64,000 nt of DNA from positions 1-64,000 of the forward strand of contig JADILM010000015.1 in the NCBI GenBank assembly GCA_016617785.1, written 5' to 3'. The position numbers and the translations under genes were made by a program. Positions 17,474 through 41,738 of this stretch are shown here, one piece after another. Source of the DNA: Sporobolomyces roseus. Taxonomy: Eukaryota > Basidiomycota > Microbotryomycetes > Sporidiobolales > Sporidiobolaceae. The notes beneath the pieces were generated by a model. The model searched no databases and was not told where the DNA came from. It saw only the letters and a list, made by a program, of their open reading frames with translations. Every line of letters starts with the position of its first letter. Position 1 is the first letter of the stretch.

Positions 17474-17488
17474 TTAACCCCCCTTTTT
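17474..17488 (+). promoter_or_regulatory. 3' motif of atp9 (C6T5)
   Basis: 26 nt after the stop and just before trnL(TAG); could be a 3' processing signal. Confidence 0.45.
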
Positions 17489-17491
17489 CAT

Positions 17492-17574
17492 GCAAGTATG
17501 CCGTAATTGGTAGCCGGGCAGTTCTTAGGAAACTGTGGCCTCCAGCCATGTGGGTTCAAGTCCCACTACTTGTA
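17492..17574 (+). tRNA. trnL: tRNA-Leu(TAG)
   Basis: Anticodon arm CAGTT-CTTAGGA-AACTG; long variable arm; acceptor GCAAGTA/TACTTGT. Its acceptor and T arm are almost the same as those of trnL(TAA). Confidence 0.92.
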
Positions 17575-17624
17575 TAAAATAACCTTCCCATGGTAAAATA
17601 TAAGAGTAATACATTATATAGAGA

Positions 17625-17640
17625 TTTATATAAGAGACCG
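17625..17640 (+). promoter_or_regulatory. Promoter-like ATATAAGAGACC
   Basis: Sense to atp6, about 99 nt before its ATG. Confidence 0.4.
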
Positions 17641-17738
17641 TAGTCACTATTTTACATAATAACTCTTTCTCTCTCGTAAGAGGGTGCGGAGGAACATACA
17701 TGTAAAAAGTTAATCTAGTAACAATTAATTATTAAATT

Positions 17739-18691
17739 ATGACAATCTTTACATCACCATTAGAGCAATTCGAAGTTACTTCTTTCGTTGCTCTTAACGC
17801 TCCATTACTTGGAGGGTTAAACCTATCATTAACTAACCTAGGATTCTACTCATTAGTAGTTCTAGTATTATCAATCGGTGTGCACGTACTTGCATCAAAC
17901 GACCGACGACTTGTACCTAGCCGATGGTCTATCGGACTAGAGTCATCATACGCTTCACTACACGGAATGGTTAAAGAGCAAATTGGATCAGCGAACGAAA
18001 TGTTCCTACCATTCATTTACTCTCTATTCTTCTTCATCATCTTAGCTAACCTAAACGGAAACGTTCCGTACGGGTACACTCTGACAACATCAATTATCGT
18101 ATCTATCGGTCTTAGTTTCACTATCTTCTTCGGAGTTACAATTCTAGGACTTTACCGACACGGTGTACACTTCTTCTCATACTTCGTACCTGCTGGAACA
18201 CCATTAGGAATGGTTCCATTATTAGTACTTATTGAGTTAATCTCATACCTAGCCCGAGCCTTCAGTCTAGGAGTACGACTGTTAAATTAGAGCAGTCGCT
18301 AAATTTCGTTATATGCTAGGATAACTACTTATTTTAAAATATAAGCCGTTAACGGGACCTTATAAAAGGTAAGACATCGTTAACTAAGTTTAATCAGCAA
18401 GTTTATAACTTCAGAGACTATACACGAAAGACATAATTGTTATTATATAGTCCACCCATAAATCATATGGGCGTCGCAAACATGGTTGCCGGACACACTC
18501 TACTTAAAATCTTAAGTGGAATGCTATGGCCTATCTTAACATCAGGAATCCTAATGTTCATCGTAGCATTACTTCCAATGGCTATCTTCTTAGCTCTTGT
18601 AGGACTAGAGATCGCGGTAAGTTTCATCCAAGCTTACGTATTCGTAGTTCTTACTTGTGTTTACCTACGGGACGCAATTGACTTACACTAA
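17739..18691 (+). CDS. atp6: ATP synthase subunit a, two exons
   Basis: Exon 1 is 17739-18282 and exon 2 18474-18691, giving 253 aa. Subunit a provides the two proton half-channels beside the c-ring. Splicing restores SLGVRLFANMVAGH, which contains the conserved Arg that faces the c-ring Glu; unspliced, the first exon would end early at LLN-stop. The 191-nt intron sits inside this most conserved helix. Start ATG has FTSPLEQFEV, as in other fungal Atp6. Four copies occur, all identical in length. Confidence 0.95.
18283..18473 (+). other. Group I intron in atp6
   Basis: 191 nt, the shortest of the eight. P7-like pair GACTA (near 18416) / TAGTC (near 18448). Exon T before, G at its 3' end. No ORF. 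Confidence 0.87.
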
Positions 18692-18750
18692 TTGTACCCT
18701 TCTAGAAGAACATACGTTTTTCTATCACTTGAGTATTAGTATTCAAGTGT

Positions 18751-18765
18751 ATAATCCCCCTTTTT
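18751..18765 (+). promoter_or_regulatory. 3' motif of atp6 (AATC5T5)
   Basis: 59 nt after the stop, following a GAGTATTAGTATTC-like inverted repeat. Confidence 0.5.
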
Positions 18766-18880
18766 CCAGCCTCTTAGGCTACGGTTATTTAATATATTTA
18801 AGCTTATCGTTACTAGTAATTAGTACAGCCTATAACCTATTACCTGGTGACATAGTTATATCTATTATTTACTTTACCAA

Positions 18881-18896
18881 AATATAAGAAAGGAAC
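18881..18896 (+). promoter_or_regulatory. Promoter-like ATATAAGAAAGGAAC
   Basis: Sense to trnN-nad6. The same 15-mer with one change occurs on the minus strand at 32251-32270 before trnR-trnG-nad2. Confidence 0.4.
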
Positions 18897-19231
18897 ATTT
18901 TATAGATGCTATAAAAGAAGGCCGTAAGGCGATAATTAATAATAGCAGAAACCCGATATTTACGGTACTATAACTATAGCTCTTCCTTTATATATTAATA
19001 TTTTTAAAGTATCTAAGGAAGAGCGTTACTATGATAGTAGCTGTTTATTGGATTTATCCAATAAATAGGCAATGATTGTACTAGTATATATGATCTAACA
19101 CATTAAAAGTTTTATAAGAAACGTATTGTTATATAATTAGGTATTACTTATACGAATATAAGTCATGTCCTTTTATTAGTATATTGGTGTGGAGAATGGA
19201 CAAGGAATAGAATCAAATGCGCATATTAATA

Positions 19232-19303
19232 GTCTTCAGGGCTATACGGTGCAGCGAAGAACTGTTAATTCTTAGATAGCTGGTTCGACTCCAGTTGAGG
19301 ACT
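19232..19303 (+). tRNA. trnN: tRNA-Asn(GTT)
   Basis: Anticodon arm AAGAA-CTGTTAA-TTCTT; acceptor GTCTTCA/TGAGGAC. Followed within 7 nt by a double-hairpin element. Confidence 0.92.
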
Positions 19304-19309
19304 TCCTCC

Positions 19310-19351
19310 TCTCACCAAAGAGAGTAAGCTTACCCGTCTTTATAGACGGGG
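19310..19351 (+). repeat. Double-hairpin element before nad6
   Basis: CTCTC...GAGAG hairpin, core GTAAGCTTACC, then a CCCGTCT...AGACGGGG hairpin. One of four such elements. Confidence 0.65.
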
Positions 19352-19531
19352 ACAGAGGGAATGCGCTTCTCGGAGTTTTTCACCCGAGTTTGTTTCTGGT
19401 TTATCCTACTATTGTGTACCCACTCACCTAGGTGGGCGATATAGTCTATGACTCTTAATTTAGCATTTTCCTTATTCTACACTAATATTTTGTAAATGCA
19501 AGGAGGTGATAATAGAGTATTTTTCATTTAT

Positions 19532-20191
19532 ATGAACAACGTATTATTAGACTTACTAGCTTTAGGTGCCATTTTATCAGGTATTATGGTTATCACTGCT
19601 AAAAACCCTGTAATTTCAGTATTATTCTTAATTGCTGTATTCCTTAACGTTGCAGGTTACTTAGTTCTATTAGGTGTAGCCTACTTAGGACTGGTATACT
19701 TAATTGTCTATGTTGGTGCTATCGCCATCTTATTCTTATTCGTTATCATGATGCTTAACCTACGACTGGTTGAGTTAGTTGATACTGGACAAGAGTACAC
19801 TAAGAGCTTACCTATGGGAGCATTCTTAGGATCACTATTCTTCTTCGAGTTACTATCAATCTTACCAGTGAGCTACCACGACGGTGGGTCACTACACGTA
19901 TCATTAAGTATCTTTAACTGGTTAAATACTACTTTATTAGGTATTTCTAACACTGACGCATCTCTTGATTCTTGTTCCCCGCTAGCGGGGAAAGGAGAAG
20001 GAGTGCACGCAGCGTTCAACCCAGTTATTGCAGATAACACTTTAACAACCTTTACTCAAATTGAGAGTATTGGTCAAGGTCTATACACATACGCATCACT
20101 ATGGTTAGTGGTTGCAAGTGTAATTTTCTTACTAGCAATGGTAGGACCAATTGTGTTATGTATGAGCCCAGCTCCTGCAAACAAATCATAA
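19532..20191 (+). CDS. nad6: NADH dehydrogenase subunit 6
   Basis: 219 aa from ATG at 19532 (MNNVLLDLL), a typical Nad6 start. An upstream in-frame ATG at 19496 would add 12 residues (MQGGDNRVFFIY); its codons overlap AAGGAGGTGAT, so I prefer the later start. About five membrane helices; NPVISVLFLIAVFLNVAGYL and YVGAIAILFLFVIMML are family landmarks. Unusual: an in-frame GC palindrome at 19975-19992 encodes part of CSPLAGKGE, in the loop before the last helix. The stop codon merges with the C5T4 motif. Confidence 0.93.
   Translation: MNNVLLDLLALGAILSGIMVITAKNPVISVLFLIAVFLNVAGYLVLLGVAYLGLVYLIVYVGAIAILFLFVIMMLNLRLVELVDTGQEYTKSLPMGAFLGSLFFFELLSILPVSYHDGGSLHVSLSIFNWLNTTLLGISNTDASLDSCSPLAGKGEGVHAAFNPVIADNTLTTFTQIESIGQGLYTYASLWLVVASVIFLLAMVGPIVLCMSPAPANKS
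19975..19992 (+). repeat. GC palindrome inside nad6 coding sequence
   Basis: TTCCCCGCTAGCGGGGAA, a perfect palindrome within the reading frame; the frame is kept. Confidence 0.75.
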
Positions 20192-20201
20192 TCCCCCTTT
20201 T
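20188..20201 (+). promoter_or_regulatory. 3' motif of nad6 (AATC5T4)
   Basis: Overlaps the TAA stop codon itself. Confidence 0.5.
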
Positions 20202-20234
20202 GTTAAGTCCGAACCTTTTAATAGAATAAAAGGA

Positions 20235-20305
20235 TAATGCTTAGCTTAATGGTAAAGCAGTAAATTCCTAATTTACGTATATAAGTTCGACTCTTTTAGT
20301 GTTAA
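20235..20305 (+). tRNA. trnR: tRNA-Arg(CCT)
   Basis: Anticodon arm GTAAA-TTCCTAA-TTTAC, D arm GCTT/AAGC, acceptor TAATGCT/AGTGTTA; T arm has one mismatch. CCT would read AGG, a codon I did not notice in the protein genes, where Arg is almost always CGN. Confidence 0.78.
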
Positions 20306-20310
20306 TCGCT

Positions 20311-20385
20311 GGGCTAAGGCGGTAGTATGGTACTACACACGGATTGCAAATCTGTTGATTTAGGGTTCGATTCCCTCTTAACCCT
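20311..20385 (+). tRNA. trnC: tRNA-Cys(GCA)
   Basis: Anticodon loop TTGCAAA; acceptor GGGCTAA/TTAACCC with one C-A mismatch. Confidence 0.88.
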
Positions 20386-20395
20386 ATATATATAT

Positions 20396-20466
20396 AAGGG
20401 TATAGTTCAATGGTAGAATAGCGAACTTCAAATTCGTCAATGCATGTTCGAATCGTGCTATCCTTG
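20396..20466 (+). tRNA. trnW: tRNA-Trp(TCA)
   Basis: Anticodon arm GCGAA-CTTCAAA-TTCGT; TCA reads UGA and UGG. Acceptor AAGGGTA/TATCCTT. Agrees with in-frame TGA codons. Confidence 0.88.
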
Positions 20467-20510
20467 TTTTGGACAGTAAGTGAAAAAACATATAAGATAA
20501 ATTAATAATT

Positions 20511-20583
20511 AGGAATGTGGTGTCAATGGTAGCATGCAGATCTCCAAAGTCTCGCGGAGCTTGTTCGAATCAAGCCATTCCTG
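20511..20583 (+). tRNA. trnW: tRNA-Trp(CCA), second Trp tRNA
   Basis: Perfect acceptor AGGAATG/CATTCCT and T arm GCTTG/CAAGC. Anticodon stem CAGAT/GTCTC (one C-C mismatch) gives loop CTCCAAA, anticodon CCA with T33. The frame shifted by one would give TCC (Gly), but its stem does not pair, and a tRNA-Gly(TCC) exists at 31730-31800. Confidence 0.78.
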
Positions 20584-20643
20584 TTTCTTCCTCTTTCCCT
20601 TTGGGGAACAAGTACTTCTCTTATAAGAACATGGGTAAATAAA

Positions 20644-20726
20644 TACAAGTAATGGGACTTGAACCCATACAACATAACGTCATGGTTGCTTAAGAACCAC
20701 CTGTCTACCAGTTCCAGCATACTTGC
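20644..20726 (-). tRNA. trnL: tRNA-Leu(TAA)
   Basis: Anticodon loop CTTAAGC; long variable arm; nearly the same acceptor and T arm as trnL(TAG). It is the only minus-strand gene in this plus-strand run. Confidence 0.92.
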
Positions 20727-20840
20727 TTTTATCTGTCCCTTAACTCTCTGCTCCTTTTATGCCAAGTAAGAGAAAGGAACAATATAAAATTACTCTTATA
20801 TATACTTCCCAAATCCTAGATTAAAGACAAGAGAATAATT

Positions 20841-20856
20841 TAATATAAGAGACATA
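20841..20856 (+). promoter_or_regulatory. Promoter-like ATATAAGAGACATAC
   Basis: Sense to trnS(TGA)-cox3, about 90 nt before the tRNA. Confidence 0.4.
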
Positions 20857-20945
20857 CTACTTAAACATTATTTTATAAGAATACGAGGGGGGTGGACAAA
20901 TACACCTATAAAACACACCAAGGAACAGATACTATATAGCGCTTA

Positions 20946-21031
20946 GGATAAATGACAGAGTGGTCGAATGTGTCATACTTGAAATATGATGTGCCTTTCC
21001 GGTACCATAGGTTCGAATCCTATTTTATCCG
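20946..21031 (+). tRNA. trnS: tRNA-Ser(TGA)
   Basis: Anticodon arm TCATA-CTTGAAA-TATGA; long variable arm; acceptor GGATAAA/TTTATCC. Confidence 0.9.
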
Positions 21032-21226
21032 TACTCTTCCTCTAATTTCTCCCCCTAACAATGGGGAAACACGGAGAAAGGAGTAGAGTCAAACCTCTAA
21101 GTATCAATTATTATGTCGATATCTTGTTCTAAAAACCTTACCTTTAAGGTTCATAGATTATGCGTTTATCTTTTAGTAAGTAAACAAAGACAACTAATTG
21201 GTGTCTGATTCTATAATTATTTAAAT

Positions 21227-22253
21227 ATGCAATTATCACGAGCTCAATTCCAAGGACACCCGTTCCACCTTGTGACTCCTTCACCATGGCCATTACTTAC
21301 TTCATTCTCATTACTAATTTTAACTATCGCCGCAGCAATGTACTTTAACGGGTTTGCTAACGGAGGTATTCTAGTAGCTATCGGATTCATTACAACTCTA
21401 AGTTCAATGATTCTATGGTTCCGAGACGTAGTAGCTGAGGGTACATTATTAGGAAACCACACATTTGCTGTACAAAAAGGTCTTAACCTTGGTGTAGCAT
21501 TGTTCATTATCAGTGAAATCTTCTTCTTCATCTCAATCTTCTGGGCCTTCAAACACTAGAAGTGGGCCCTTTAAATTAAACTATATGCCAGAAATGTGCT
21601 TCTAGATATAGGTACTATTAAATATTATAGTGACAACTCTATTCTATAAACCTAAAGCCCTGACTAGCAGTTATAACTAACTCAAAGACTACATGTTTAA
21701 GCGAGATACTCTCGTAAGATATAGTCTGATTATAGTACTGATATAATAAACATCACGTCTATAAATAGACTTCCACTCAGCCTTAGCACCTACTGTAGAG
21801 TTAGGTAACGCTTGGCCTCCAGCCGGAATCGACCCATTAAACCCATTCGAGATCCCATTATTAAACACAATCCTACTTCTGTCATCAGGAGCTAGTGTTA
21901 CATACGCGCACCACTCATTAATTGAGGGTAACCGACGAGGTACACTATTAGGAATTATTATCACTGTAGTATTAGCTGTGATTTTCACAGGTCTACAAGG
22001 ATTAGAGTACTACGAGGCACCATTTACAATCGCAGATGGAGCATACGGTTCAACATTCTTCTTTGCTACAGGATTCCACGGTATTCACGTTATTATTGGT
22101 ACAGCATTCATTGCAGTAGCATTCTTCCGAATTCTATCATACCACTTAACAGACCACCACCACCTAGGTTTCGAGGCTTCAATCCTATACTGGCACTTCG
22201 TTGATGTAGTTTGGTTATTCCTTTACATCTCAATTTACTGGTGGGGTTCATAA
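21227..22253 (+). CDS. cox3: Cytochrome c oxidase subunit 3, two exons
   Basis: Exon 1 is 21227-21548 and exon 2 21769-22253; 268 aa. Third core subunit of complex IV, seven helices. Splicing after GCC-T joins FWA to YFHSALAPT, matching other fungal Cox3; without it exon 1 ends at AFKH-stop. C-terminal landmarks are [31 protein letters not shown] and the terminal YWWGS. The 3' motif is the weak C4T3 form. Confidence 0.95.
21549..21768 (+). other. Group I intron in cox3
   Basis: 220 nt, no ORF. P7-like GACTA (near 21687) / TAGTC (near 21722); exon T before, G last. Confidence 0.86.
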
Positions 22254-22587
22254 CTCTTAATCTTATTACCCTTTCTTACTTAAAGTAGTTAGGCAATACA
22301 ATCCCCTTTATCGATTGTTTATATCAATTATGCATGTACATCTCTTATAGTTATGTGACTTCTTAATAGACAACGTCGAGATTATTACTTGACCACCTTG
22401 TAAACGCAAGTTTGCACGTTTCTATTGTGATTGCTCTACCTAGTTCGCCTCCAGTACATGGAGGATGCTAAGGATGGGCTAGTTAATACAAATTATTACT
22501 AGTTCACAGCATTATATTGCTTAATTATACGTCCAGTCTAAGTACTGGATGATATTAAGGATAGGAGGTAAATTTATTATTATTATT
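22254..22587. other. cox3-nad4 spacer
   Basis: Contains the cox3 3' motif, an ATAAGAGATGTAC motif on the minus strand (22336-22350), the repeat GCTAAGGATG-R-GCTAGTTAATA near 22467 shared with the rps3 leader, and an ATT run before nad4. No gene seen. Confidence 0.6.
22298..22310 (+). promoter_or_regulatory. 3' motif of cox3 (AATC4T3)
   Basis: 44 nt after the stop; weaker than most. Confidence 0.35.
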
Positions 22588-24036
22588 ATGATTACAGCAC
22601 TTATTCTTATTCCATTACTAGGAGCGTTAATTCTAGCTCCTATGTCGGAAACCACACCACTACAAATTTCACAAGTTAAGCGAGTAGCTTTACTTACAAC
22701 TGTAGTAACTTTCATCTTATCAATGGTTATGTGGGGTGAATTTGACTCAAGCTCAAGCCAGTACCAGTTTACTGTAGAGTACAACCAACTTAGCTATCTG
22801 CACATGCACATGGGAGTTGACGGTCTTTCACTTTACTTCGTATTACTTACAACATTTACAATGCCAATCTGTGTATTAGCAAGTTGGGAGAATGTTAAAC
22901 ACAACATTAAATCATACATGATTGCTTTCTTAGTACTAGAGAGTCTTCTAATTGCAGTATTCGTAGTATTAGATCTATTACTATTCTACGTATTCTTCGA
23001 GTCAGTATTAATTCCACTATTCATTATTGTTGGAGTTTGGGGAGCAAGTGCAGATCGTATCCGTGCTTCATTCCTACTGTTCCTATACACATTATTCGGT
23101 TCATTATTCATGCTACTAGCCTTCCTAGTTATCTTCTACCACGTTGGAAGTACTGACTTCGAAGTGTTATCATTAGCTGACATTAGTTTCGAGAGCCAGC
23201 GATGGTTATGGTTAGCTATTTTCTTAAGTCTAGCTATTAAAACTCCATTATTACCAGTTCACATTTGGCTAAGTCGTGCACACGTAGAGGCGCCCGTTGC
23301 TGCGTCAATGGTTCTGGCTGGGTTAATTCTTAAACTAGCTACATATGGATTCCTACGAGTTCTAATTCCATTCTTACCTGAGGCTACATCATACTTCTCA
23401 CCATTAGTACAAACTATTGCTGTTGTTACACTAGTGTACAGTTCATTAACTACACTACGACAAACTGACTTTAAAGTTCTTGTTGCTTACTCATCAATTG
23501 CCCACATGTCAGTAGTTGTTATTGGTCTATTCTCTAACACATTACAAGGTATCGAAGGTGCTATTCTATTAGGAATTGCCCACGGTATTGTGTCACCAGC
23601 TATGTTCATGTGTGTAGGTGGAATTCTTTACGATCGATACCACACACGTGTGATCCGATACTACCGAGGACTTACTCAGTACATGCCAATGTTCTCATTA
23701 CTATTCTTCCTATTCATCTTAGGAAACATGTCTACACCATTAACTGTTAACTGGGCAGGAGAATTAATGGCCTTGATGGGCTCAATTCAACGAAGTCCAC
23801 TAATTGGATTAGCTATGAGTTCCGGTATTGTATTCTCTGCGGCATACTCAATTTGGCTATACGCACGACTATGTAACGGTTCTTGGTCTCCTTTCCTTGG
23901 TTACGCTATTGATGTAACTCGACGTGAGTTCATGGTATTATTACCATTACTAATCACTATGTTCCTATTCGGACTATTCCCTAACATCATTCTTACTGAT
24001 CTACACTACTCAGTATCAACATTACTATACGAATAG
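22588..24036 (+). CDS. nad4: NADH dehydrogenase subunit 4
   Basis: 482 aa antiporter-like proton-pumping subunit of complex I. Conserved runs are FYVFFESVLIPLFIIVG (with the key Glu), SLAIKTPLLPVHIWLSRAHVEAPVAASMVLAGLILK, and GIAHGIVSPAMF. I start at 22588 (MITALILIPLLGA), after an ATT run; an upstream ATG at 22549 would add 13 atypical residues and overlaps a GGAGGT sequence. The last 42 bases of gene and flank (23999-24040) recur at 24125-24166. Confidence 0.94.
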   Translation: MITALILIPLLGALILAPMSETTPLQISQVKRVALLTTVVTFILSMVMWGEFDSSSSQYQFTVEYNQLSYLHMHMGVDGLSLYFVLLTTFTMPICVLASWENVKHNIKSYMIAFLVLESLLIAVFVVLDLLLFYVFFESVLIPLFIIVGVWGASADRIRASFLLFLYTLFGSLFMLLAFLVIFYHVGSTDFEVLSLADISFESQRWLWLAIFLSLAIKTPLLPVHIWLSRAHVEAPVAASMVLAGLILKLATYGFLRVLIPFLPEATSYFSPLVQTIAVVTLVYSSLTTLRQTDFKVLVAYSSIAHMSVVVIGLFSNTLQGIEGAILLGIAHGIVSPAMFMCVGGILYDRYHTRVIRYYRGLTQYMPMFSLLFFLFILGNMSTPLTVNWAGELMALMGSIQRSPLIGLAMSSGIVFSAAYSIWLYARLCNGSWSPFLGYAIDVTRREFMVLLPLLITMFLFGLFPNIILTDLHYSVSTLLYE

Positions 24037-24040
24037 TTTT
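23999..24040 (+). repeat. Direct repeat, copy 1 (3' end of nad4)
   Basis: Identical to 24125-24166; the inner part is seen a third time, with one change, at 24041-24062. Confidence 0.85.
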
Positions 24041-24062
24041 AACATTACTATACAAATAGTAT

Positions 24063-24075
24063 TATAATCCCCCTT
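24063..24075 (+). promoter_or_regulatory. 3' motif of nad4 (AATC5TT)
   Basis: 26 nt after the stop; a second form (AATC3T4) follows the repeat copy near 24168-24178. Confidence 0.45.
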
Positions 24076-24078
24076 ACC

Positions 24079-24122
24079 ACCCCCCTCGAAGAGGGGGTAA
24101 GCTTACCCGCCCTAAGGGGCGG
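24079..24122 (+). repeat. Double-hairpin element after nad4
   Basis: CCCCCTCGAAGAGGGGG hairpin, core GTAAGCTTACC, CGCCCTAAGGGGCG hairpin. It separates the two repeats of the nad4 end. Confidence 0.75.
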
Positions 24123-24124
24123 TA

Positions 24125-24166
24125 ATCTACACTACTCAGTATCAACATTACTATACGAATAGTTTT
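24125..24166 (+). repeat. Direct repeat, copy 2 (duplicated nad4 end)
   Basis: Non-coding duplicate of 23999-24040, placed right after the double-hairpin element. Confidence 0.85.
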
Positions 24167-24330
24167 ATAATCCCTTTTCATCGCCAATACTTGTTCGTCT
24201 CTTATATTAATTGTATGAGCGTGTATATATATATAACCTATGTTTATATAAGTTGTATACTTCTTATTCGTTGTTTATAGTACAAGTTTACCTCTCTAGT
24301 ATCATATTCTTGTTTGTCTCTTATAATAAA

Positions 24331-24402
24331 TCGGAGAATTGGGAATCGAACCCAAACGTTCTTCAACCCAAATGAAGCGCCCGGCCATTAGGCTTTCCTC
24401 CG
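24331..24402 (-). tRNA. trnP: tRNA-Pro(TGG)
   Basis: Anticodon loop TTTGGGT; acceptor CGGAGGA/TTCTCCG. Downstream of rnl on the same strand. Confidence 0.9.
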
Positions 24403-24763
24403 GATACTTATATATTTACCATTTAAGAAAATGGGGGGAACAATGTGGTATCATCAAGTCTAGCGACTCATTAGTATCACTCAGCTGACGCCTTGCAGCG
24501 CTTACACATGTGACCTATCAAGGACGTGGTCTACATCCTGTCGCTTGCTAGCTTCCAAAGAACAGCTTCGATCTTATATGCTTTCAGATCTTATCCTTAA
24601 CACATGTAGCTACTCTGCGATACCATTAACGTCTTTTAAACGCAACTAATAGCAGATACACCAGAGATGTGCACCTGATGGTCCTTTCGTACTAACCAGA
24701 TGTTCTTCTTATTCTATATGTCCCACCAGAAGATAGGGACCATACTGACTCACGTCGTATTGA

Positions 24764-27878: not shown

Positions 27879-27884
27879 ATGTAA

Positions 27885-27896
27885 GAAGGGGGATTT
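27885..27896 (-). promoter_or_regulatory. 3' motif of rns (AATC5TT)
   Basis: About 7 nt after the inferred rRNA end. Confidence 0.5.
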
Positions 27897-29424: not shown

Positions 29425-29439
29425 GTTCATCTCTTATAT
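29425..29439 (-). promoter_or_regulatory. Promoter-like ATATAAGAGATGAAC before rns
   Basis: Sense, about 120 nt upstream of rns and just after nad3. Confidence 0.42.
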
Positions 29440-29445
29440 TGATAT

Positions 29446-29457
29446 AAAAAGGGGGAT
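29446..29457 (-). promoter_or_regulatory. 3' motif of nad3 (TATC5T5)
   Basis: 6 nt after the nad3 stop. Confidence 0.5.
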
Positions 29458-29463
29458 AATAGA

Positions 29464-30075
29464 TTAAGCTTCAATTGTAGCTCGGTTAATTGATGATCGG
29501 TGGTCTGTGAATTTCAGGGCTCCTTTACCGAACTCGTAAACGACTAATCTTCACGCCTAGGTATTTATAAAATAAGCGCGAGACAAGGACTATATCATAC
29601 CTCTATTTATACGCTGCACTTCCTACGGAAAATGGGAAGCATTATAGAGGTTTACACTTGTAGTCTCTGAGATTTATCTTCTGATTCCCAACTAGTATTT
29701 GTTTCCTAAATGCAGGCATATTAGTCTTGTTTGGTTTCAGAATATAGTGTAATAGTATACCGGACTCATTTATCCGATAGTTAGAAGTACTAAGAAAATC
29801 ATGGCAACCCAGAATCCGTAAACTGATACTTGGTATAGTGTTACAGCTAATGGGTATAGAACAGCGATCTCAAGATCGAAGATTAAGAACAGAATACCAA
29901 CTAAGTAGTATTGAATAGCGAACGGTGCTCGGACTTGTCCGTAGATTGGGTTAAACCCACACTCATAAGGAGTAACTTTCTCTGTGTCAGGTCGGTGAAC
30001 TGCTAATAACACGTTTAGTGCTAATAGAATTGCAACAAGTACTGGAACAAAGATGAATAATACAACCATTGTCAT
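29464..30075 (-). CDS. nad3: NADH dehydrogenase subunit 3, two exons
   Basis: Exon 1 is 29772-30075 and exon 2 29464-29543; 127 aa. Landmarks: ECGFNP with the conserved Cys of the Nad3 loop, and [12 protein letters not shown]. The intron interrupts the phenylalanine codon in TIGFVYE, so the second exon is short (25 whole codons). ATG overlaps the nad2 TAA by one base, suggesting one bicistronic mRNA. Confidence 0.94.
29544..29771 (-). other. Group I intron in nad3
   Basis: 228 nt, no ORF; CAGAGACTACA ... ATATAGTCC gives the P7-like pair. Exon T before, G last. Confidence 0.87.
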
Positions 30076-32589: not shown

Positions 32590-33357
32590 ATGGCTATCTT
32601 TACAAGCTTATTATCATTTGTATTACCAGTGCACTGTGACGCACCTTACCCTTGGCAAATTGGATTCCAAGACGGAGCTACTCCAACATTCGAGGGAATT
32701 GTTGAGTTACACGACACTATCTTCTTCTACCTGGTTGTTATCAGTTTCTTAGTATTCTGGATGATGTCTGTTATTATGGTTAAATTCAGTAGCAGCAAAG
32801 TAGGTATTGTACACAAATACCACAACCACGGAACTTTAATCGAGTTAGTATGGACTATTACTCCTGCTCTAATTCTTATCGCTATCGCTTTCCCTAGTTT
32901 CAAATTACTTTACCTGATGGATGAGGTTATCTCACCAACAATGACAGTTAAAGTAGCCGGTCACCAATGGTACTGGTCTTACGAGTACAGTGATTTCGTT
33001 AGCGCGGACGGAGAGTCAATTGAGTTTGACTCATACATGGTTCCTGAGTCAGATCTTGAGTTAGGACAATTACGACTTCTTGAGGTTGACAACCGTGTAG
33101 TAGTGCCAGTAGACACACACATTCGATTTATCGTTACAGGACAAGATGTTATCCACGATTGGGCCGTACCTTCACTAGGAATTAAAATGGATGCCGTTCC
33201 AGGGCGACTGAACCAAACTTCAGTAATCATCCAACGTGAGGGAACTTACTATGGACAATGTAGTGAGATCTGTGGAGTATACCACGCCTTTATGCCAATC
33301 GTTGTAGAGGCTGTTTCTCTAGAGAAATACTTAAGCTGGTTAGACAGCCAAGTTTAA
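32590..33357 (+). CDS. cox2: Cytochrome c oxidase subunit 2
   Basis: 255 aa, intron-free. Receives electrons from cytochrome c at the dinuclear CuA site: ligand run [12 protein letters not shown] near the C-terminus, plus a His in the [15 protein letters not shown] region. Two N-terminal helices, then the intermembrane-space domain with the aromatic run [13 protein letters not shown]. First gene of the plus-strand run cox2-nad1-cob. Confidence 0.96.
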
Positions 33358-33395: not shown

Positions 33396-33420
33396 CATAC
33401 ATAAGTGGTAATAGTAAACA

Positions 33421-33434
33421 AATCCCCCTTTTTT
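33421..33434 (+). promoter_or_regulatory. 3' motif of cox2 (AATC5T6)
   Basis: 63 nt after the stop, following the palindrome. Confidence 0.5.
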
Positions 33435-33519: not shown

Positions 33520-34509
33520 ATGCTATCTGCACTATACAGTTTATTAGAAATTGTTATTGTATTAGTTCCAATTTTACTGTCAGTTGCTTTCATGACTATC
33601 ATCGAGCGTAAAGTTCTTGCTAGTATGCAACGACGAGTTGGGCCTAACACAGTAGGATACTTAGGAGTTCTGCAACCCTTTGCCGACGCCCTAAAGTTAG
33701 TGGTTAAAGAAACTGTAGTACCACAACACGCTACACGAAGTCTATTCTTCTTAGCCCCTGTTATCAGTCTAGTGTTTAGCCTATTAGGTTGGGCCGTAAT
33801 TCCATTCGGAAGCGGTTTAGCCTTATCTGACTTTAGCCTTGGTATTCTATACTCATTAGCGATTTCATCAATCGGAGTTTACGGAGTACTATTCGCGGGT
33901 TGGTCTGCTAACTCTAAGTATGCGTTCCTTGGATCTCTTCGAAGTACAGCTCAAATGATTAGTTACGAGTTAATTCTTAGCTCTGCTGTTCTAGCTGTAA
34001 TTCTATTAACAGGAACATTCCATTACACAACTATTATTGAGAGCCAACAAAGTGTTTGGTTCTTAATCCCATTATTCCCACTATTCATTATCTTCTTCAT
34101 CTCAGTATTAGCTGAAACTAACCGGACTCCATTTGACCTGCCAGAAGCTGAGTCAGAGCTGGTAGCTGGATTCTTTACTGAGCACTCAGGAATGATCTTC
34201 GTATTCTTCTTCTTAGCCGAGTACTGTAGTATTGTTTTAATGTCAGCATTTACTGCTATCCTATTCATGGGAGGGTACATTATGCCTGAGATTATTCCTA
34301 ACGATACATTTATTAATGTACAAAGTGTAGTATTAGCACTTAAAACATGTATCTTCTGTTTCATCTTCGTATGGTTCCGAGCTACACTTCCACGGTTACG
34401 ATATGATCAATTAATGCAAGCATGTTGGACAGGAATCCTTCCAGTTGTTATTGCACTAATTATCTTAGTACCATCACTGTTAGTAGCATTTGATATTGCA
34501 CCTTACTAA
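33520..34509 (+). CDS. nad1: NADH dehydrogenase subunit 1
   Basis: 329 aa, intron-free. Forms much of the quinone-entry channel of complex I: ERKVLASMQRRVGPN in the first loop and ETNRTPFDLPEAESELVAGF in the acidic loop are both complete. Eight or so membrane helices. Confidence 0.96.
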   Translation: MLSALYSLLEIVIVLVPILLSVAFMTIIERKVLASMQRRVGPNTVGYLGVLQPFADALKLVVKETVVPQHATRSLFFLAPVISLVFSLLGWAVIPFGSGLALSDFSLGILYSLAISSIGVYGVLFAGWSANSKYAFLGSLRSTAQMISYELILSSAVLAVILLTGTFHYTTIIESQQSVWFLIPLFPLFIIFFISVLAETNRTPFDLPEAESELVAGFFTEHSGMIFVFFFLAEYCSIVLMSAFTAILFMGGYIMPEIIPNDTFINVQSVVLALKTCIFCFIFVWFRATLPRLRYDQLMQACWTGILPVVIALIILVPSLLVAFDIAPY

Positions 34510-34517
34510 TAGTTTAC

Positions 34518-34528
34518 AATCCCCCTTA
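34518..34528 (+). promoter_or_regulatory. 3' motif of nad1 (AATC5TT)
   Basis: 8 nt after the stop. Confidence 0.45.
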
Positions 34529-34575
34529 CCGCCCCGCCCCCTTATTTTCCCCCTTGGGGAACAGGGTAAGCTTAA
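34523..34575 (+). repeat. Degenerate double-hairpin element after nad1
   Basis: C/G-rich arms around CCCCTTGGGG followed by GGGTAAGCTTAA; the second hairpin is missing or worn. Confidence 0.45.
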
Positions 34576-34637
34576 CACTAGATATTTAATCCCCTTTATA
34601 CCCATCAACGCGTATGTCTCTTATATTTAGATAACTA

Positions 34638-34646
34638 ATATAAGTA
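34638..34646 (+). promoter_or_regulatory. Exact yeast-type nonanucleotide ATATAAGTA
   Basis: 274 nt before the cob ATG, sense strand. Identical to the S. cerevisiae mitochondrial promoter core; function here is inference. Confidence 0.4.
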
Positions 34647-34919
34647 AATAATCTTGGCCACATTGAACAGTTATTGCTGTTTATTTAATCACGCTTTTGC
34701 CTGACTAAACACCTATTATACTTTAGACTGAAGATAAGCTTTACCCTCTTAGTCGTTATTAAAGTATTGGGTTCTATTATCATTATTCATTTTAATATTC
34801 CACACTATCATAAACACGTAGGTGTCTGACCTACTCTTATGTTATGATTAATCATTATCATAATTTTAAGATTAGTTTATTAGCGAAAGCAACTAATAGA
34901 CTAAGAATTATTTACATCC

Positions 34920-36098
34920 ATGCGATTACTTAAATCACATCCTATTTTAGGACTTGTAAACAGCTACATGGTTGATTCACCTCAACCTGCTAGCTTAACA
35001 TACATGTGGAACTTTGGTTCACTACTAGGTGCTTGTCTAGTAATCCAAATTATCACAGGTATCACACTTGCAATGCACTATACGCCTAACATCGATCTTG
35101 CATTCGTAAGTGTAGAGCACATTATGCGGGACGTTCACTACGGATGGTTAATCCGATACCTTCACGCTAACGTTGCTTCATTCTTCTTCATCTTCGTTTA
35201 CCTACACATTGGTCGAGGACTGTACTACGGATCATACCGATCACCACGAGTACTACTATGGTCTATCGGAGTTATTATTCTAGTTCTAATGATGGCTACT
35301 GCATTCCTTGGTTACGTTTTACCTTACGGTCAAATGTCACTATGGGGAGCTACTGTAATTACTAACTTACTGTCAGCTATTCCTTGGATTGGAACAGACT
35401 TCGTGCAATTCGTATGGGGAGGGTTCAGTGTAAACAACGCTACTCTTAACCGATTCTTCTCATTACACTACTTACTACCGTTCATCTTAGCTGCTTTAGC
35501 TGCAATGCACCTATTAGCACTACACGAGCACGGAAGTAGTAACCCATTAGGTATCTCTGGTAACACTGATCGATTACCATTCCACCCATACTTCGTATTC
35601 AAAGATCTTGTAACAGTATTCTTATTCTTACTAGTTCTTGGAGTGATGGTATTCTACGCACCTAACTACCTAGGTCACAGTGATAACTACATCCCAGCTA
35701 ACCCAATGCAAACACCTGCATCAATTGTTCCTGAGTGATACTTACTACCGTTCTACGCCATCTTACGATCTATTCCAAACAAATTACTTGGAGTATTAGC
35801 CATGTTCATGTCACTGCTAATCCTACTTGCAATGCCAATTGTGGATACATCACGAGTACGAGGATCACAATTCCGACCATTAATGCGATGGGCCTTCTGG
35901 CTATTCGTATCTAACTTCTTTGTATTAATGTACATTGGAAGCCAACACGTTGAAGAGCCATTTATTACTGTAGGTGCTATTTCAACAGCATTCTACTTTG
36001 GATGGTTCCTAATTGTTGTACCAGTAATTGGTATCGTAGAGAACACTCTACTTGATATCGCTACTGAGCCTAAAACAGCAACAGCAACAGCATCATAA
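34920..36098 (+). CDS. cob: Cytochrome b
   Basis: 392 aa, intron-free, with one internal TGA (35736-35738) read as Trp in the Qo-site motif PEWY. Haem ligands are seen in YLHANVASF / VYLHIGRG and HYLLPF / LLALHEHG. The C-terminus ends in a Thr-Ala repeat (TATATAS) encoded by an ACAGCA run. Catalytic core of complex III. Reading TGA as stop would remove 120 residues. Confidence 0.96.
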
Positions 36099-36100
36099 TT

Positions 36101-36115
36101 TAATCCCCCTTTTTA
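36101..36115 (+). promoter_or_regulatory. 3' motif of cob (AATC5T5)
   Basis: 2 nt after the stop. Confidence 0.5.
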
Positions 36116-36171
36116 TGACAATTCTTGTATGTCTCTTATATTTAAATAATATAGGTATAAGAGATGAACAG

Positions 36172-36200
36172 ATAAACTAGATAAACTAGATAAACTAGAT
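36172..36200. repeat. Tandem 9-bp repeat ATAAACTAG
   Basis: Three units plus two bases between cob and atp8. Confidence 0.8.
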
Positions 36201-36213
36201 TACTCCCAGGGGA

Positions 36214-36226
36214 GAAAGGGGGATTA
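36214..36226 (-). promoter_or_regulatory. 3' motif of atp8 (AATC5T3)
   Basis: 60 nt after the atp8 stop, beyond the GCCCAGC palindrome. Confidence 0.45.
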
Positions 36227-36260
36227 TGTTCCCAGCATAACCGGGAGAGCATATACAATC

Positions 36261-36277
36261 GCCCAGCGTAGCTGGGC
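36261..36277. repeat. GC palindrome after atp8
   Basis: GCCCAGCGTAGCTGGGC. The same palindrome follows cox1 at 36752-36770. Confidence 0.75.
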
Positions 36278-36286
36278 GCATAATAA

Positions 36287-36433
36287 TTATAGTTTAGTGA
36301 TGTACATTCGTGTTACAAATAGCTCAGCGAATGCTGGTAGGATGTAAGTACCGAATACGTAAACCATAGTGATTAACACTAAGAATGCAAATGATAATTG
36401 GTTAACGAAGTAGAATGGTAATAGTTGTGGCAT
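36287..36433 (-). CDS. atp8: ATP synthase subunit 8
   Basis: 48 aa, starting [15 protein letters not shown], the hallmark of fungal Atp8, with one membrane helix and a short charged tail (VTRMYITKL). A small F0 stator protein. Lies downstream of cox1 on the same strand with 355 nt between. Confidence 0.93.
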
Positions 36434-36664
36434 AATTAATATTATTATAGGCTTTACTCTGTTCCCTGTTGGCCCCTATAGGAAGGAGCTGGGGTAGGGA
36501 AGGTACAAAAATACGCACCCATGCTCCCAATATTTCTAAAGGAAGTAGCTGGGTGAAAGAGTTTATAAGCGTGCCTTGCGTCCATATTAGTAATAGATGG
36601 ACTATAGGCTTGGTGTTGGGTTTATAATTTATTTCGCCCCTTGTCATCACCAAAGGTGGGGAAG

Positions 36665-36681
36665 AAAAAGGGGGGTTTATT
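36665..36681 (-). promoter_or_regulatory. 3' motif of cox1 (AAAC6T5)
   Basis: 107 nt after the stop; the most distant of the set. Confidence 0.4.
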
Positions 36682-36751
36682 CTTAACTCTTACACAATCT
36701 AAGTCCCTTTGAGTAAAGGGGATAAAATGCTTAATTAACTTAAAAAAGTCT

Positions 36752-36770
36752 CGCCCAGCGTAGCTGGGCG
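36752..36770. repeat. GC palindrome after cox1
   Basis: CGCCCAGCGTAGCTGGGCG, 18 nt after the cox1 stop. Confidence 0.75.
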
Positions 36771-36788
36771 CATAAAACATACTAACAG

Positions 36789-38773
<1,985 letters not shown>

Positions 38774-39130
38774 ATTTAAATAAGATATGTTGTTGTTCTA
38801 TTCACGTTTAAATACATAACGTACTTTTGTCCTTAACTGTTTGTTACTCACTTATTGCCCAGTATTTCTACATTGTCCTCTTTCCCCCCTACGGGGGGAA
38901 CATGGGGTGAGGAAGGAAAGCAAGAGTAAAGGTGCATACTGAATTGATTCTACCTTTTGATAGACTCTGAATGCTAAAAGATATTAAAGTTATGATGTCT
39001 TCTTATTATTTTAATTCATTTATAAGAGACGAACTTGACTAATTAAATGACAGGTGAGTTACTAGTTATTAGTTAGCGTATCTGTTTCTTATACTACCGC
39101 ACTACTCTATTTAATAAAGTGAGTTTGAAT
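38774..39130. other. trnI-cox1 spacer
   Basis: No gene. Has a CCCCCCTACGGGGGG palindrome (38881-38900) and a plus-strand ATAAGAGACGAAC (39019-39034), antisense to cox1. Confidence 0.6.
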
Positions 39131-39201
39131 TAGGACCAGGGGGAATCGAACCACCATACTACAATTATCGGCTGTATGCTCTACCGTTGAGCTATGATCC
39201 C
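39131..39201 (-). tRNA. trnI: tRNA-Ile(GAT)
   Basis: Anticodon arm TACAG-CCGATAA-TTGTA; position 33 is C instead of T. Confidence 0.85.
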
Positions 39202-39313
39202 TTTACTTGCTTATTAACTTCTAGGTAATAAAAGTACTTACATAGTTAAAATTAATCATCCTTATACAGAGTCAGTTAAATATAAGAAACTTACTCTTGC
39301 AACAGTTAGACGG

Positions 39314-39329
39314 GAAAAGGGGGGTTGTA
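39314..39329 (-). promoter_or_regulatory. 3' motif of rps3 (AACC5T4)
   Basis: 13 nt after the stop. Confidence 0.45.
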
Positions 39330-39342
39330 TGCGATAAATAAT

Positions 39343-40017
39343 TTATCGACTTTGTTGGCTAATCCAAACTTTCATTGTGAATGCACCTAACTTGTTCTTA
39401 GCAGTGTGTTGGCTGTAATCAACTGTACCGAATTGGCCTTTAGCTGATGAACCTAGTCGTCCTGCTTGTACTGTTTGTCGTGGTCCAGATCGTTGTGTTG
39501 TCAGTCGTCCTGATAGTTTCACTTTTACACCAGTAATATGTGATGTAGGAGTTACGCTATCGTCTACTGATCCTTCAGAAACAACTGTTGGTAAGCTAGC
39601 TTTCAGCATATCTAAGATACGGTTGAATGAGTATTTACCAGCATTAGCAGTTAAGTATTGTGCGAAGATTGAACTATCTAGAGCTGAATGGTTAAGACGA
39701 ATTAATCGTAACTCAACTGTTCGACCCCATGATCGTGTTAAAGCATCTCCTAGTGTAGCAATACTTTGGTTGTTTGCCCCGAGCTCCGCTCGGGGAGTAT
39801 CAGTAGGTGCGTAGTAGAATAACTGCACGATAACTTTATCAGCGTTTACCGTAAATACAGGCTTACCTACTAGCGCTGGAGAACCAGTGTTAGTTGATTT
39901 TTGTCCTAATTTAGAAGGTAAAGCAGCAAAGAATGACTGAATAATTGAAATGGCTTGACGTTGCATTGACATAATGTTAGTTCGATTAGATTTATCAAAC
40001 ATGTATGTTGTTGTCAT
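39343..40017 (-). CDS. rps3: Ribosomal protein S3-like (fungal mitochondrial rps3/var1 family)
   Basis: 224 aa, basic. Identified by place in a fungal gene set, the KVKLSGRL-type segment and C-terminus (GTVDYSQHTAKNKLGAFTMKVW), which resembles fungal mitochondrial Rps3. It is shorter than many family members. Unusual: an in-frame GC palindrome (39777-39795) encodes part of TPRAELGA. Sits at the end of a tRNA cluster on the same strand. The family call is from general resemblance. Confidence 0.75.
   Translation of the reverse strand: MTTTYMFDKSNRTNIMSMQRQAISIIQSFFAALPSKLGQKSTNTGSPALVGKPVFTVNADKVIVQLFYYAPTDTPRAELGANNQSIATLGDALTRSWGRTVELRLIRLNHSALDSSIFAQYLTANAGKYSFNRILDMLKASLPTVVSEGSVDDSVTPTSHITGVKVKLSGRLTTQRSGPRQTVQAGRLGSSAKGQFGTVDYSQHTAKNKLGAFTMKVWISQQSR
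39777..39795 (-). repeat. GC palindrome inside rps3 coding sequence
   Basis: CCCCGAGCGGAGCTCGGGG, 7-bp stem, frame maintained. Confidence 0.75.
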
Positions 40018-40224
40018 ATTTATATATTTAGTAGGGTATTCTACTAGGCCTTGTTTATTGAATTGATCAAGGCTGTGTATAAGATGCGCTTCTAGTTGTG
40101 ACCTAGAATAGCTTATATATTGCTAAGGATGAGCTAGTTAATATAAGTTGCACCGAAGTTAATGTATTATCATTATTTATAACTTATTAAGCCTATTAAG
40201 CTTGTTTATTTCTTATAAACTATA

Positions 40225-40307
40225 TTGGGTAGGCATGACTCGAACATGCGGTAGCGTAGCTAACTTATTTACAGTAAGTCTCCTTAACCAACTAGGAAAA
40301 CTACCCA
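40225..40307 (-). tRNA. trnY: tRNA-Tyr(GTA)
   Basis: Loop CTGTAAA; long variable arm; acceptor TGGGTAG/CTACCCA perfect. Confidence 0.9.
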
Positions 40308-40345
40308 TTATAATATATATGCATATTCATAATACTAATTCGGAC

Positions 40346-40419
40346 TGCCAAAGGACGGATTCGAACCGATCACTAACGAGATCTTCAGTCAAGTGCATTA
40401 CCAACTATGCTACTTTGGC
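40346..40419 (-). tRNA. trnF: tRNA-Phe(GAA)
   Basis: Acceptor GCCAAAG/CTTTGGC and D arm GCAT/ATGC pair well; loop CTGAAGA gives GAA, but anticodon and T stems have mismatches. Phe is otherwise missing from the set. Confidence 0.75.
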
Positions 40420-40459
40420 TTGGGGTTTAATACGCTAGGCGAAGGGCCCAGGATTATTA

Positions 40460-40530
40460 TGGAGATAGCAAGAATCGAACTTGCGTCACAATGATGCAAA
40501 CACCGTGTAATGCCATTATACTATATCCCC
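40460..40530 (-). tRNA. trnA: tRNA-Ala(TGC)
   Basis: Anticodon arm CGGTG-TTTGCAT-CATTG; acceptor GGGGATA/TATCTCC. Confidence 0.88.
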
Positions 40531-40604
40531 CTATATATATACTTATATATACCTCTCTGATTATAAGAGTCTAACCACTCTAAAGCAAGAGTACATAATT
40601 AGTT

Positions 40605-40691
40605 CAGACAAGATAGGATTCGAACCTACAATACGGTTATGCCGTATACTGAATAGCAATCAGTTTACCCCTTCCAATAGGCGACTTATCC
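40605..40691 (-). tRNA. trnS: tRNA-Ser(GCT)
   Basis: Anticodon arm ACTGA-TTGCTAT-TCAGT; long variable arm. Confidence 0.9.
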
Positions 40692-40808
40692 TTTGGTACC
40701 TATGCTTGCCTTATTCTTTTTATAATCCAAATATGTCTTATAAAAAGAAAAGAATAAAGAATCATTTTCATCTTCTATTTATCGTAAGTAATGCATAAAC
40801 AACACTAT

Positions 40809-40881
40809 CAGGTGCTAACAGATTTGAACTGTTGACCATCTAGTTAAAAGCTAGACGCTCTACCAACTGAGCTAAGCACCC
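40809..40881 (-). tRNA. trnK: tRNA-Lys(TTT)
   Basis: Anticodon arm TCTAG-CTTTTAA-CTAGA; T loop TTCAAAT. Confidence 0.92.
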
Positions 40882-40928
40882 TTATTTTGTTATTGGTTCA
40901 AGAGCAAAGGGTGCGAATAAATAAACGA

Positions 40929-41000
40929 TTGGGTTAACTTGAATCGAACAAGTATCGTGGACTCCCAAAAAATCCCGTCATGCCATTAGACCATAACCCA
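40929..41000 (-). tRNA. trnQ: tRNA-Gln(TTG)
   Basis: Anticodon arm GGATT-TTTTGGG-AGTCC; acceptor TGGGTTA/TAACCCA. Confidence 0.87.
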
Positions 41001-41051
41001 ATTAGGACCTACCACTTTGTTTCTCTTACTTATATTGTCCTTAAGTTATCT

Positions 41052-41120
41052 ACCAAATCCGTGAATTGAACACAGGATTACTACTTACAAGGTAGTCGTT
41101 TTACCACTAAACTAATCTGG
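41052..41120 (-). tRNA. trnT: tRNA-Thr(TGT)
   Basis: Anticodon arm ACTAC-CTTGTAA-GTAGT; acceptor CCAGATT/GATTTGG. Confidence 0.88.
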
Positions 41121-41124
41121 CCAT

Positions 41125-41193
41125 AGACTGGACAGGAATCGAACCTGCGTGCACAGCATGAAGAGCTGTTATCCTACCACTAGATGACCAATC
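41125..41193 (-). tRNA. trnE: tRNA-Glu(TTC)
   Basis: Anticodon arm ACAGC-TCTTCAT-GCTGT. Lost from the rightmost copy. Confidence 0.85.
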
Positions 41194-41200
41194 CTGTTCT

Positions 41201-41246
41201 TCCCCCCCCTTTGGGGGTAAGCTTACCCTCCCTTTGGGAGGGGGAC
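41201..41246 (-). repeat. Double-hairpin element between trnM and trnE
   Basis: CCCCCTTTGGGGG hairpin, core GTAAGCTTACC, CTCCCTTTGGGAGGG hairpin. Confidence 0.75.
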
Positions 41247-41262
41247 ATGATAAATTAATATA

Positions 41263-41331
41263 CGCGGACCCGGGAATCGAACCCAGAACTACCGATCATG
41301 AGTCGGTGATTATACCGTTTAACTAATCCAC
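41263..41331 (-). tRNA. trnM: tRNA-Met(CAT), second CAT tRNA
   Basis: Anticodon arm ACCGA-CTCATGA-TCGGT. Lost from the rightmost copy. Confidence 0.87.
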
Positions 41332-41373
41332 TTTCTGTTACCATCTAAATTAAGGTAAATGCAATCAGCATAA

Positions 41374-41445
41374 TACAAGATAGTAGAGTCGAACTACTGT
41401 CTCTTACGTGTAAAGTAAGCGTTCTAACCGTTGAACCAATCTCGC
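41374..41445 (-). tRNA. trnV: tRNA-Val(TAC)
   Basis: Anticodon arm CTTAC-TTTACAC-GTAAG; acceptor GCGAGAT/ATCTTGT. Lost from the rightmost copy. Confidence 0.87.
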
Positions 41446-41516
41446 GTAACTTTTGTTCCTATATGAGCCTTTACTCATCTGTGTAGACGATCGTATGTGA
41501 AGCTGTAACAAATATT

Positions 41517-41611
41517 CTTATATATGTTATATTTTAAGTACCCTCCTTATATGTTATATCCTAAGTACCCTCCTTATATATTATAAACACCTTTATATGT
41601 TCTAGGTACCT
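41517..41611. repeat. Imperfect tandem repeat near nad5 3' flank
   Basis: Unit of about 28 bp (CTTATATGTTATAT-YY-TAAGTACCCTC), two good copies and a worn third. Confidence 0.7.
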
Positions 41612-41722
41612 TTCCAGGCCCCCCGGCTGTATAGCCGGGGGAGACAGGTTCCTCGAGCCGGAACCTTCCTGATACCTCTCTCCCTTCCTGATAGTCGGTC
41701 GAGAGGAACTTATCTCTTTTGG

Positions 41723-41738
41723 TAAAAAGGGGATTATA
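41723..41738 (-). promoter_or_regulatory. 3' motif of nad5 (AATC4T5)
   Basis: 23 nt after the stop. Confidence 0.45.

Follow-up and report, generated by a model that had tools for sequence, protein, structure and literature searches.

In the mitochondrial DNA (mtDNA) of a red yeast, a short C/T motif with the consensus (A/T)A(T/C)C4-5T2-6 stands in sense orientation behind all 13 protein genes that end a transcript, as well as behind rns, the gene of the small-subunit (SSU) ribosomal RNA (rRNA). The sequence in question is the 64-kb stretch part of which is given above, hereafter the window. It is contig C15 of a 22.4-Mb eukaryotic assembly of 15 contigs and is a mosaic in which a 28,139-bp mitochondrial unit recurs in direct and inverted orientation. 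Its cob gene is 98% identical to an entry from the Sporidiobolaceae, the red-yeast family within the Pucciniomycotina, and the unit resembles in size and composition the Rhodotorula babjevae mtDNAs, for which passages of PMC9027234 give 30.9 and 28.4 kb with 38.9% GC. All counts after the first motif scan are confined to one unit (window positions 15512-43650). The motif is best read, with a probability of about 0.77, as a cis-acting RNA signal that would fix the 3' ends of mature mitochondrial messenger RNAs (mRNAs) and of the SSU rRNA in Sporidiobolales red yeasts. A sense-only, genome-wide C/U tag of this kind in a basidiomycete offers a ready-made and testable 3'-end signal, and where red yeasts of industrial use are annotated, it may help to place the ends of transcripts.

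The 13 genes are atp9, atp6, nad6, cox3, nad4, cox2, nad1, cob, nad3, atp8, cox1, rps3, and nad5. Past the ends of these genes and of rns, the first C of the nearest run lies 1-67 nucleotides (nt) downstream. A first-pass annotation of the window had listed a C5-T-type motif after the same genes and rns, and the list stands in full. For nad3, it was right about the presence of the motif but not about its position after the first in-frame stop: the gene is split by an intron, and its reading frame resumes in exon 2, ending at 29464 just before the motif. The sites are given below with the distance from gene end to first C.

17476..17487, plus strand: atp9 3' motif AACCCCCCTTTT; stop ends at 17447, first C at 30 nt, tRNA-Leu from 17491
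18753..18764, plus strand: atp6 3' motif AATCCCCCTTTT; stop ends at 18691, first C at 64 nt
20190..20201, plus strand: nad6 3' motif AATCCCCCTTTT; the AA of the motif closes the TAA stop codon, first C at 1 nt, tRNA-Arg from 20235
22300..22311, plus strand: cox3 3' motif AATCCCCTTTAT; stop ends at 22253, first C at 49 nt
24066..24077, plus strand: nad4 3' motif AATCCCCCTTAC; stop ends at 24036, first C at 32 nt, adjoining a GC-rich insert that resembles a double hairpin
24169..24178, plus strand: second, weaker nad4 copy AATCCCTTTT (C3), behind a duplicated nad4 tail
33421..33432, plus strand: cox2 3' motif AATCCCCCTTTT; stop ends at 33357, first C at 66 nt
34518..34529, plus strand: nad1 3' motif AATCCCCCTTAC; stop ends at 34509, first C at 11 nt
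34588..34599, plus strand: later nad1 motif AATCCCCTTTAT, past a GC-rich insert
36102..36113, plus strand: cob 3' motif AATCCCCCTTTT; stop ends at 36098, first C at 6 nt
29447..29458, minus strand: nad3 3' motif TATCCCCCTTTT, after the end of exon 2; stop at 29466-29464, first C at 8 nt
27884..27895, minus strand: rns motif AATCCCCCTTCT, directly past the rns 3' end (Rfam end 27899), first C at 6 nt
24428..24440, minus strand: weaker rnl variant TTCCCCCCATTTT (C6-A-T4); Rfam end 24450, first C 11 nt downstream
36214..36225, minus strand: atp8 3' motif AATCCCCCTTTC; gene end 36287, first C at 64 nt
36713..36724, minus strand: cox1 3' motif TATCCCCTTTAC; gene end 36789, first C at 67 nt
36666..36677, minus strand: second cox1 motif AACCCCCCTTTT, farther downstream of the same gene
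39315..39326, minus strand: rps3 3' motif AACCCCCCTTTT; gene end 39343, first C at 18 nt
41724..41735, minus strand: nad5 3' motif AATCCCCTTTTT; gene end 41762, first C at 29 nt

Over 16 sites, the A at position -2 and the TT after the C-run are invariant (16/16 each); T at -1 and a third T are each present at 13. The C-run comprises five bases at nine sites and four at another four, which belong to the weaker sites (cox3, nad5, the first cox1 copy, and the last nad1 copy). It reaches six at atp9, rps3, and one cox1 copy because the base preceding the run is itself C.

The placement of the motif departs strongly from chance. In the initial scan of the whole window, AATCCCCCTTTT at up to two mismatches gave 51 matches against 6.5 expected and a maximum of 13 in 100 shuffles, a count inflated by the repeated and inverted copies of the unit. 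Zones were then defined as the 0-120 nt past 15 terminal genes, rRNAs included, which amount to 11.7% of the both-strand noncoding sequence. The two strands of the unit together hold 14 runs of at least four C followed by at least three T (C4+T3+), all of them noncoding. Thirteen lie in sense zones and none antisense of a zone, in agreement with the earlier statement that the motif is always in sense; the equal antisense frequency named there as contrary evidence was not found. The lone run outside the zones is a C8T3 hairpin between transfer RNAs (tRNAs) at 41202. The binomial p of 9e-12 for this enrichment assumes independent runs and a zone suggested by the finding itself, and the related yeast described below is the cleaner test. 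With a shorter T-run allowed (C4+T2+), 18 of 24 runs fall in sense zones and one antisense; with a longer one required (C4+T4+), all nine fall in sense zones. Enrichment over shuffled sequence, part of a check that had been proposed, was also borne out: 500 shuffles of the 41 noncoding segments gave a mean of 2.3 and a maximum of 9 C4+T3+ runs, compared with the 14 observed. Requiring a preceding A gave 22 matches against a mean of 0.77 and a maximum of 5, a count in which overlapping patterns register most sites twice (in the shuffles too) and which is superseded by the weaker comparison of 14 with 2.3.

The motif is missing at both junctions where genes abut, namely nad4L/nad5, with a spacer of 2 nt, and nad2/nad3, whose genes overlap (0/2); the former absence had already been noted, and the latter had gone unmentioned. 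Downstream of tRNAs, no C4+T3+ run occurs in sense within 120 nt (0/25). In the whole assembly, exact AATCCCCCTTTT is found 28 times, with 12 copies on C15, 14 on C13 and C14 together, and one each on C1 and C5. Contigs C13 and C14, which bear the motif several times, are probably mtDNA too.

A related red yeast came to light when genome contigs of bacteria and archaea were scanned with nad5. It is represented by a 16,374-bp contig (PAQV01000020.1) of red-yeast mtDNA, mis-binned as a Rhodobacteraceae metagenome-assembled genome, and its nad5 is 96% identical to that of the window. All seven testable gene ends (atp9, nad6, cox3, atp8, cox1, cob, and nad3) carry C4-5T3+ in sense, with the first C 1-88 nt downstream. 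Ten C4+T3+ runs are present, nine in a zone and none antisense; the tenth, at 121 nt, comes third in a tandem row that follows atp8. In both mtDNAs the most frequent 7-mer of the 3' flanks is CCCCTTT (12/15 in the window and 8/8 in the relative), with no antisense occurrence in either. The nad4L/nad5 junction of the relative is likewise free of the motif. The contig has no rRNA genes; the motif behind SSU rRNA is seen at rns of the window. Moreover, a free-standing GIY-YIG open reading frame (ORF) at positions 5275-6289 of this contig, located between two tRNA-Trp(UCA) copies and matching Pfam PF01541 barely above the cut-off, bears a C/T tag 10 nt downstream. No C4+T2+ run was found behind the intron-borne LAGLIDADG ORF in the relative's cox3.

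The distance to the first C has shifted between window and relative at atp9 (30/25), cox3 (49/43), atp8 (64/88), cox1 (67/41), and nad3 (8/34); no shift is seen at nad6 and cob. When the flanks (100 nt) of the seven genes in common are aligned, they give 56-66 matches, compared with a mean of 59 and a maximum of 67 in a baseline obtained by shuffling a single pair, that of cox1, 100 times. The best-aligning flank is that of atp9, and the set as a whole is close to unalignable. With flanks of this kind and shifted distances, retention of the motif by selection appears more likely than retention through short divergence. The C-run itself may be drifting: the relative has one C fewer at five of the seven shared sites (6 to 5 at atp9; 5 to 4 at nad6, atp8, cob, and nad3), a pattern that homopolymer errors of assembly could mimic. 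At cox1 the run is equal (6 to 4 if the second copy is taken), and at cox3 the change is opposite, from 4 to 5. The repeat copies in the window agree on the C-runs at atp9, atp6, and nad6, although these copies are not independent.

A distant fungus served as outgroup. Its 74.5-kb mtDNA (NZ_BMRP01000034.1), a contaminant in a Streptomyces assembly, has cob segments matching at 67-77% over long stretches. All 14 of its gene ends, or 12 once nad4L and nad2, which abut the next gene, are discounted, lack a C4+T3+ run in the following 120 nt, some gene ends being uncertain owing to introns; bare CCCCT occurs in the flanks of cox1, cox2, and nad6. The search in related fungi that had been recommended found the motif in the relative, and the absence in this one outgroup means that the signal is not universal in fungi. 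The two bacterial genome entries mentioned here, PAQV01000020.1 and NZ_BMRP01000034.1, contain fungal mitochondrial contigs through contamination or mis-binning. Viral contigs were additionally scanned for fungal mtDNA with cob, cox1, and nad4. The cob scan gave nothing and that with nad4 gave three pattern matches, none of them confirmed. Of the window's proteins, two of the three cox1 loci showed cox1 and cox2 alone and the third no more than short cox1 pieces; these loci, which are probably not from a fungal mitochondrion, were set aside.

An element that recurs behind mRNAs and rns, and not after tRNAs or within abutting pairs, fits a signal for the 3' ends of mature RNAs. As RNA, the signal would read (A/U)A(U/C)C4-5U2-6, a C/U tract such as AAUCCCCCUUUU. 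Transcription would pass through the motif, and the precursor would then be cut, or trimmed from 3' to 5', back to the C/U tract. A nuclear-encoded, sequence-specific RNA-binding protein would mark or shield the end at the tract; it would most likely be of the helical-repeat type, comparable to Rmd9 on the budding-yeast dodecamer, and tRNAs would be freed separately via RNase P/Z. Read-through is suggested by tRNA genes that lie close downstream on the same strand, tRNA-Leu starting 4 nt beyond the atp9 copy and the tRNA-Arg cluster 34 nt beyond that of nad6, with no promoter-like TATAAGAG box between motif and tRNA in either case. Provided that the promoter guess holds, transcription most likely runs through the motif, which would then act on the RNA. 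As for the protein, two Pfam searches of the nuclear genome produced ten long open frames with pentatricopeptide repeat (PPR) matches. Seven of thirteen PPR loci were translated in forward frames only, two of them yielding only short frames. When two PPR frames were compared with solved structures, Rmd9 was not among the 40 and 30 matches listed, and no PPR frame could be linked to the motif.

Several observations weigh against a 3'-end signal. At rnl only a weak variant is present, and the T-run is short or interrupted at nad4 and the first nad1 copy (T2 in both) as well as at rns, which reads CCCCCTTCTT. More than one copy follows cox1 (another at 113 nt) and nad1 (further ones, the last at 81 nt), and thus at least one site is possibly unused. 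In predicted folds the C-run is not unusually accessible, with a mean unpaired probability of 0.76 compared with 0.73 in shuffled flanks; the lowest values are 0.23 at both cox1 copies and 0.49 at atp8 (three of 16 sites below 0.5). Furthermore, to the eye, window and relative seem homologous in the atp9 flank and over parts of the flanks of nad6 and cob, and at these three genes common ancestry by itself could account for the motif.

Among other explanations, one is transcription termination: the mitochondrial RNA polymerase might be halted by the motif, in its DNA form or in the nascent transcript, possibly with help from a protein of the mTERF type. The location at gene ends, the T-run behind the C-run, and the TATAAGAG boxes that follow several motifs closely in the same orientation, such as those of nad3 and rns, would all suit a terminator. 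Nevertheless, a stop at the atp9 and nad6 motifs would deprive tRNA-Leu and the tRNA-Arg cluster of an upstream promoter. An intrinsic terminator would have a stable G+C-rich stem, C-run included, directly before the T-run; the motif does not look like one, since the predicted fold leaves the C-run largely unpaired (at least 0.6) at 13 of 16 sites. Termination is accordingly considered unlikely. Secondary structure as the signal was also considered and rejected, as the accessibility of the C-run is the same as with shuffled flanks.

It is even harder to regard the motifs as remnants of a dispersed mobile element, such as a GC cluster or double-hairpin element, in intergenic DNA. GC-rich inserts of double-hairpin appearance with GTAAGCTTA do adjoin the nad4 and nad1 motifs, but the motif is only about 12 nt long, its flanks vary between sites, and its sense-only occurrence at gene ends (13 vs 0) is not expected of random insertion; this origin is very improbable. 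The uniform sequence behind stop codons could also serve for base pairing with an rRNA or small RNA encoded in the mtDNA, for instance in translation termination or mRNA storage. Against such a role, which we consider next to negligible, no complement of C4T3 or longer exists in the rns, rnl, or tRNAs of the unit, shorter or wobble pairing falling outside that search, and the motif also stands behind rns, which is untranslated. Compositional bias or chance, that is, C/T-rich sequence that simply tends to follow genes, might be invoked for so short a motif, with C-rich hairpins elsewhere in the mtDNA and about two C4+T3+ runs arising per shuffle. This explanation is refuted by the excess of 14 runs over a shuffle maximum of 9 (n=500), by their confinement to sense zones in 13 of 14 cases with none antisense, and by the replication in the relative, where nine of ten lie in a zone and the tenth falls 1 nt beyond it within the atp8 tandem row. 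The preferred reading thus remains an RNA 3'-end signal.

Processing or stability of the 3' end, as the first-pass annotation had suggested, is therefore retained as the best reading, whereas the budding-yeast dodecamer that it had offered as the analogue is less close than the C-core of Schizosaccharomyces pombe. The C-core is the closest known counterpart, and the motif may work like it, a likeness drawn from placement. In both systems a C-rich sense tract stands shortly 3' of mRNAs and SSU rRNA, here of 13 mRNAs and rns. The host phylum differs, being Basidiomycota (Pucciniomycotina) here, as does the form, which is C4-6 with A at -2 and TT after the run at 16 of 16 sites. In addition, mitochondrial RNA ends were reportedly mapped in S. 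pombe, whereas the present motif was seen in DNA sequence. The mitochondrial C-core of S. pombe was reportedly treated by Schafer, Hansen and Lang in 2005 (RNA 11:785). The dodecamer AAUAAUAUUCUU is similar in that it is short, follows the majority of mitochondrial mRNAs, and both defines their 3' end and guards it, and it differs in being AU-rich instead of C-rich; the red-yeast motif is additionally found behind rns. The top 7-mers of the window flanks are CCCCTTT, CCCCCTT, and AATCCCC, none of them AU-rich like the dodecamer, which was itself not searched for. Passages of PMC4618339 describe the C-core as a C-rich 3' signal of mRNAs and SSU rRNA, and parts of PMC11469412 and PMC9181182 deal with the dodecamer and its PPR protein Rmd9. 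Another fungal mitochondrial 3'-end motif, TAAATT, is proposed in sections of PMC8979003 for Metarhizium and Beauveria (Hypocreales) downstream of mRNAs and the large-subunit (LSU) rRNA; it is AT-rich, lies 1-218 nt downstream, and includes LSU rRNA.

Among the literature matches listed, no title or beginning of an abstract names a C-rich mitochondrial 3' motif in a basidiomycete. A C-rich 3' signal as such is already known; apparently new here are the basidiomycete case, the fixed A-Y-C-T layout, and the hints of concerted drift. The motif could help to test whether the C-tract processing of fission yeast is old or convergent. It is tempting, though rather doubtful, to suppose that 3'-end definition by a C-tract is an old trait of the Dikarya, kept in red and fission yeasts and elsewhere replaced by AT-rich signals, and that the red-yeast tract co-evolves with one C-tract-binding protein. 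Such co-evolution is suggested by the C loss at five of seven shared sites together with the tag on the free-standing homing-endonuclease ORF. Concerted drift of the C-tract, if confirmed, would indicate a single binding protein.

Some further features of these mtDNAs deserve mention. The promoter-like box TATAAGAG occurs 18 times in the unit (15512-43650, both strands) and is found in the relative too. Examples are at 29438, 27875, 36140, and 34625 on the minus strand and at 36156 on the plus strand; the box often continues as A(C/T)NNAC and is close to the yeast nonanucleotide ATATAAGTA, as given in part of PMC8979003. Boxes of either orientation stand near several motifs, those of nad3, rns, nad1, cob, and cox3, at 17-46 nt counted to the first C. 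The GC-rich inserts at 24069-24180, 34521-34599, and 41202-41245 share GTAAGCTTA and resemble double-hairpin elements; the nad4 insert has a duplicate of the gene tail and of a weaker C/T motif on its far side. The mosaic of copies of the 28.1-kb unit in the window represents either an assembly concatemer or genuine flip-flop isomers. Lastly, both tRNA-Trp(UCA), called tRNA-SeC by ARAGORN, and tRNA-Trp(CCA) are encoded in the mtDNA at window positions 20395-20584, and the same is true of the relative.

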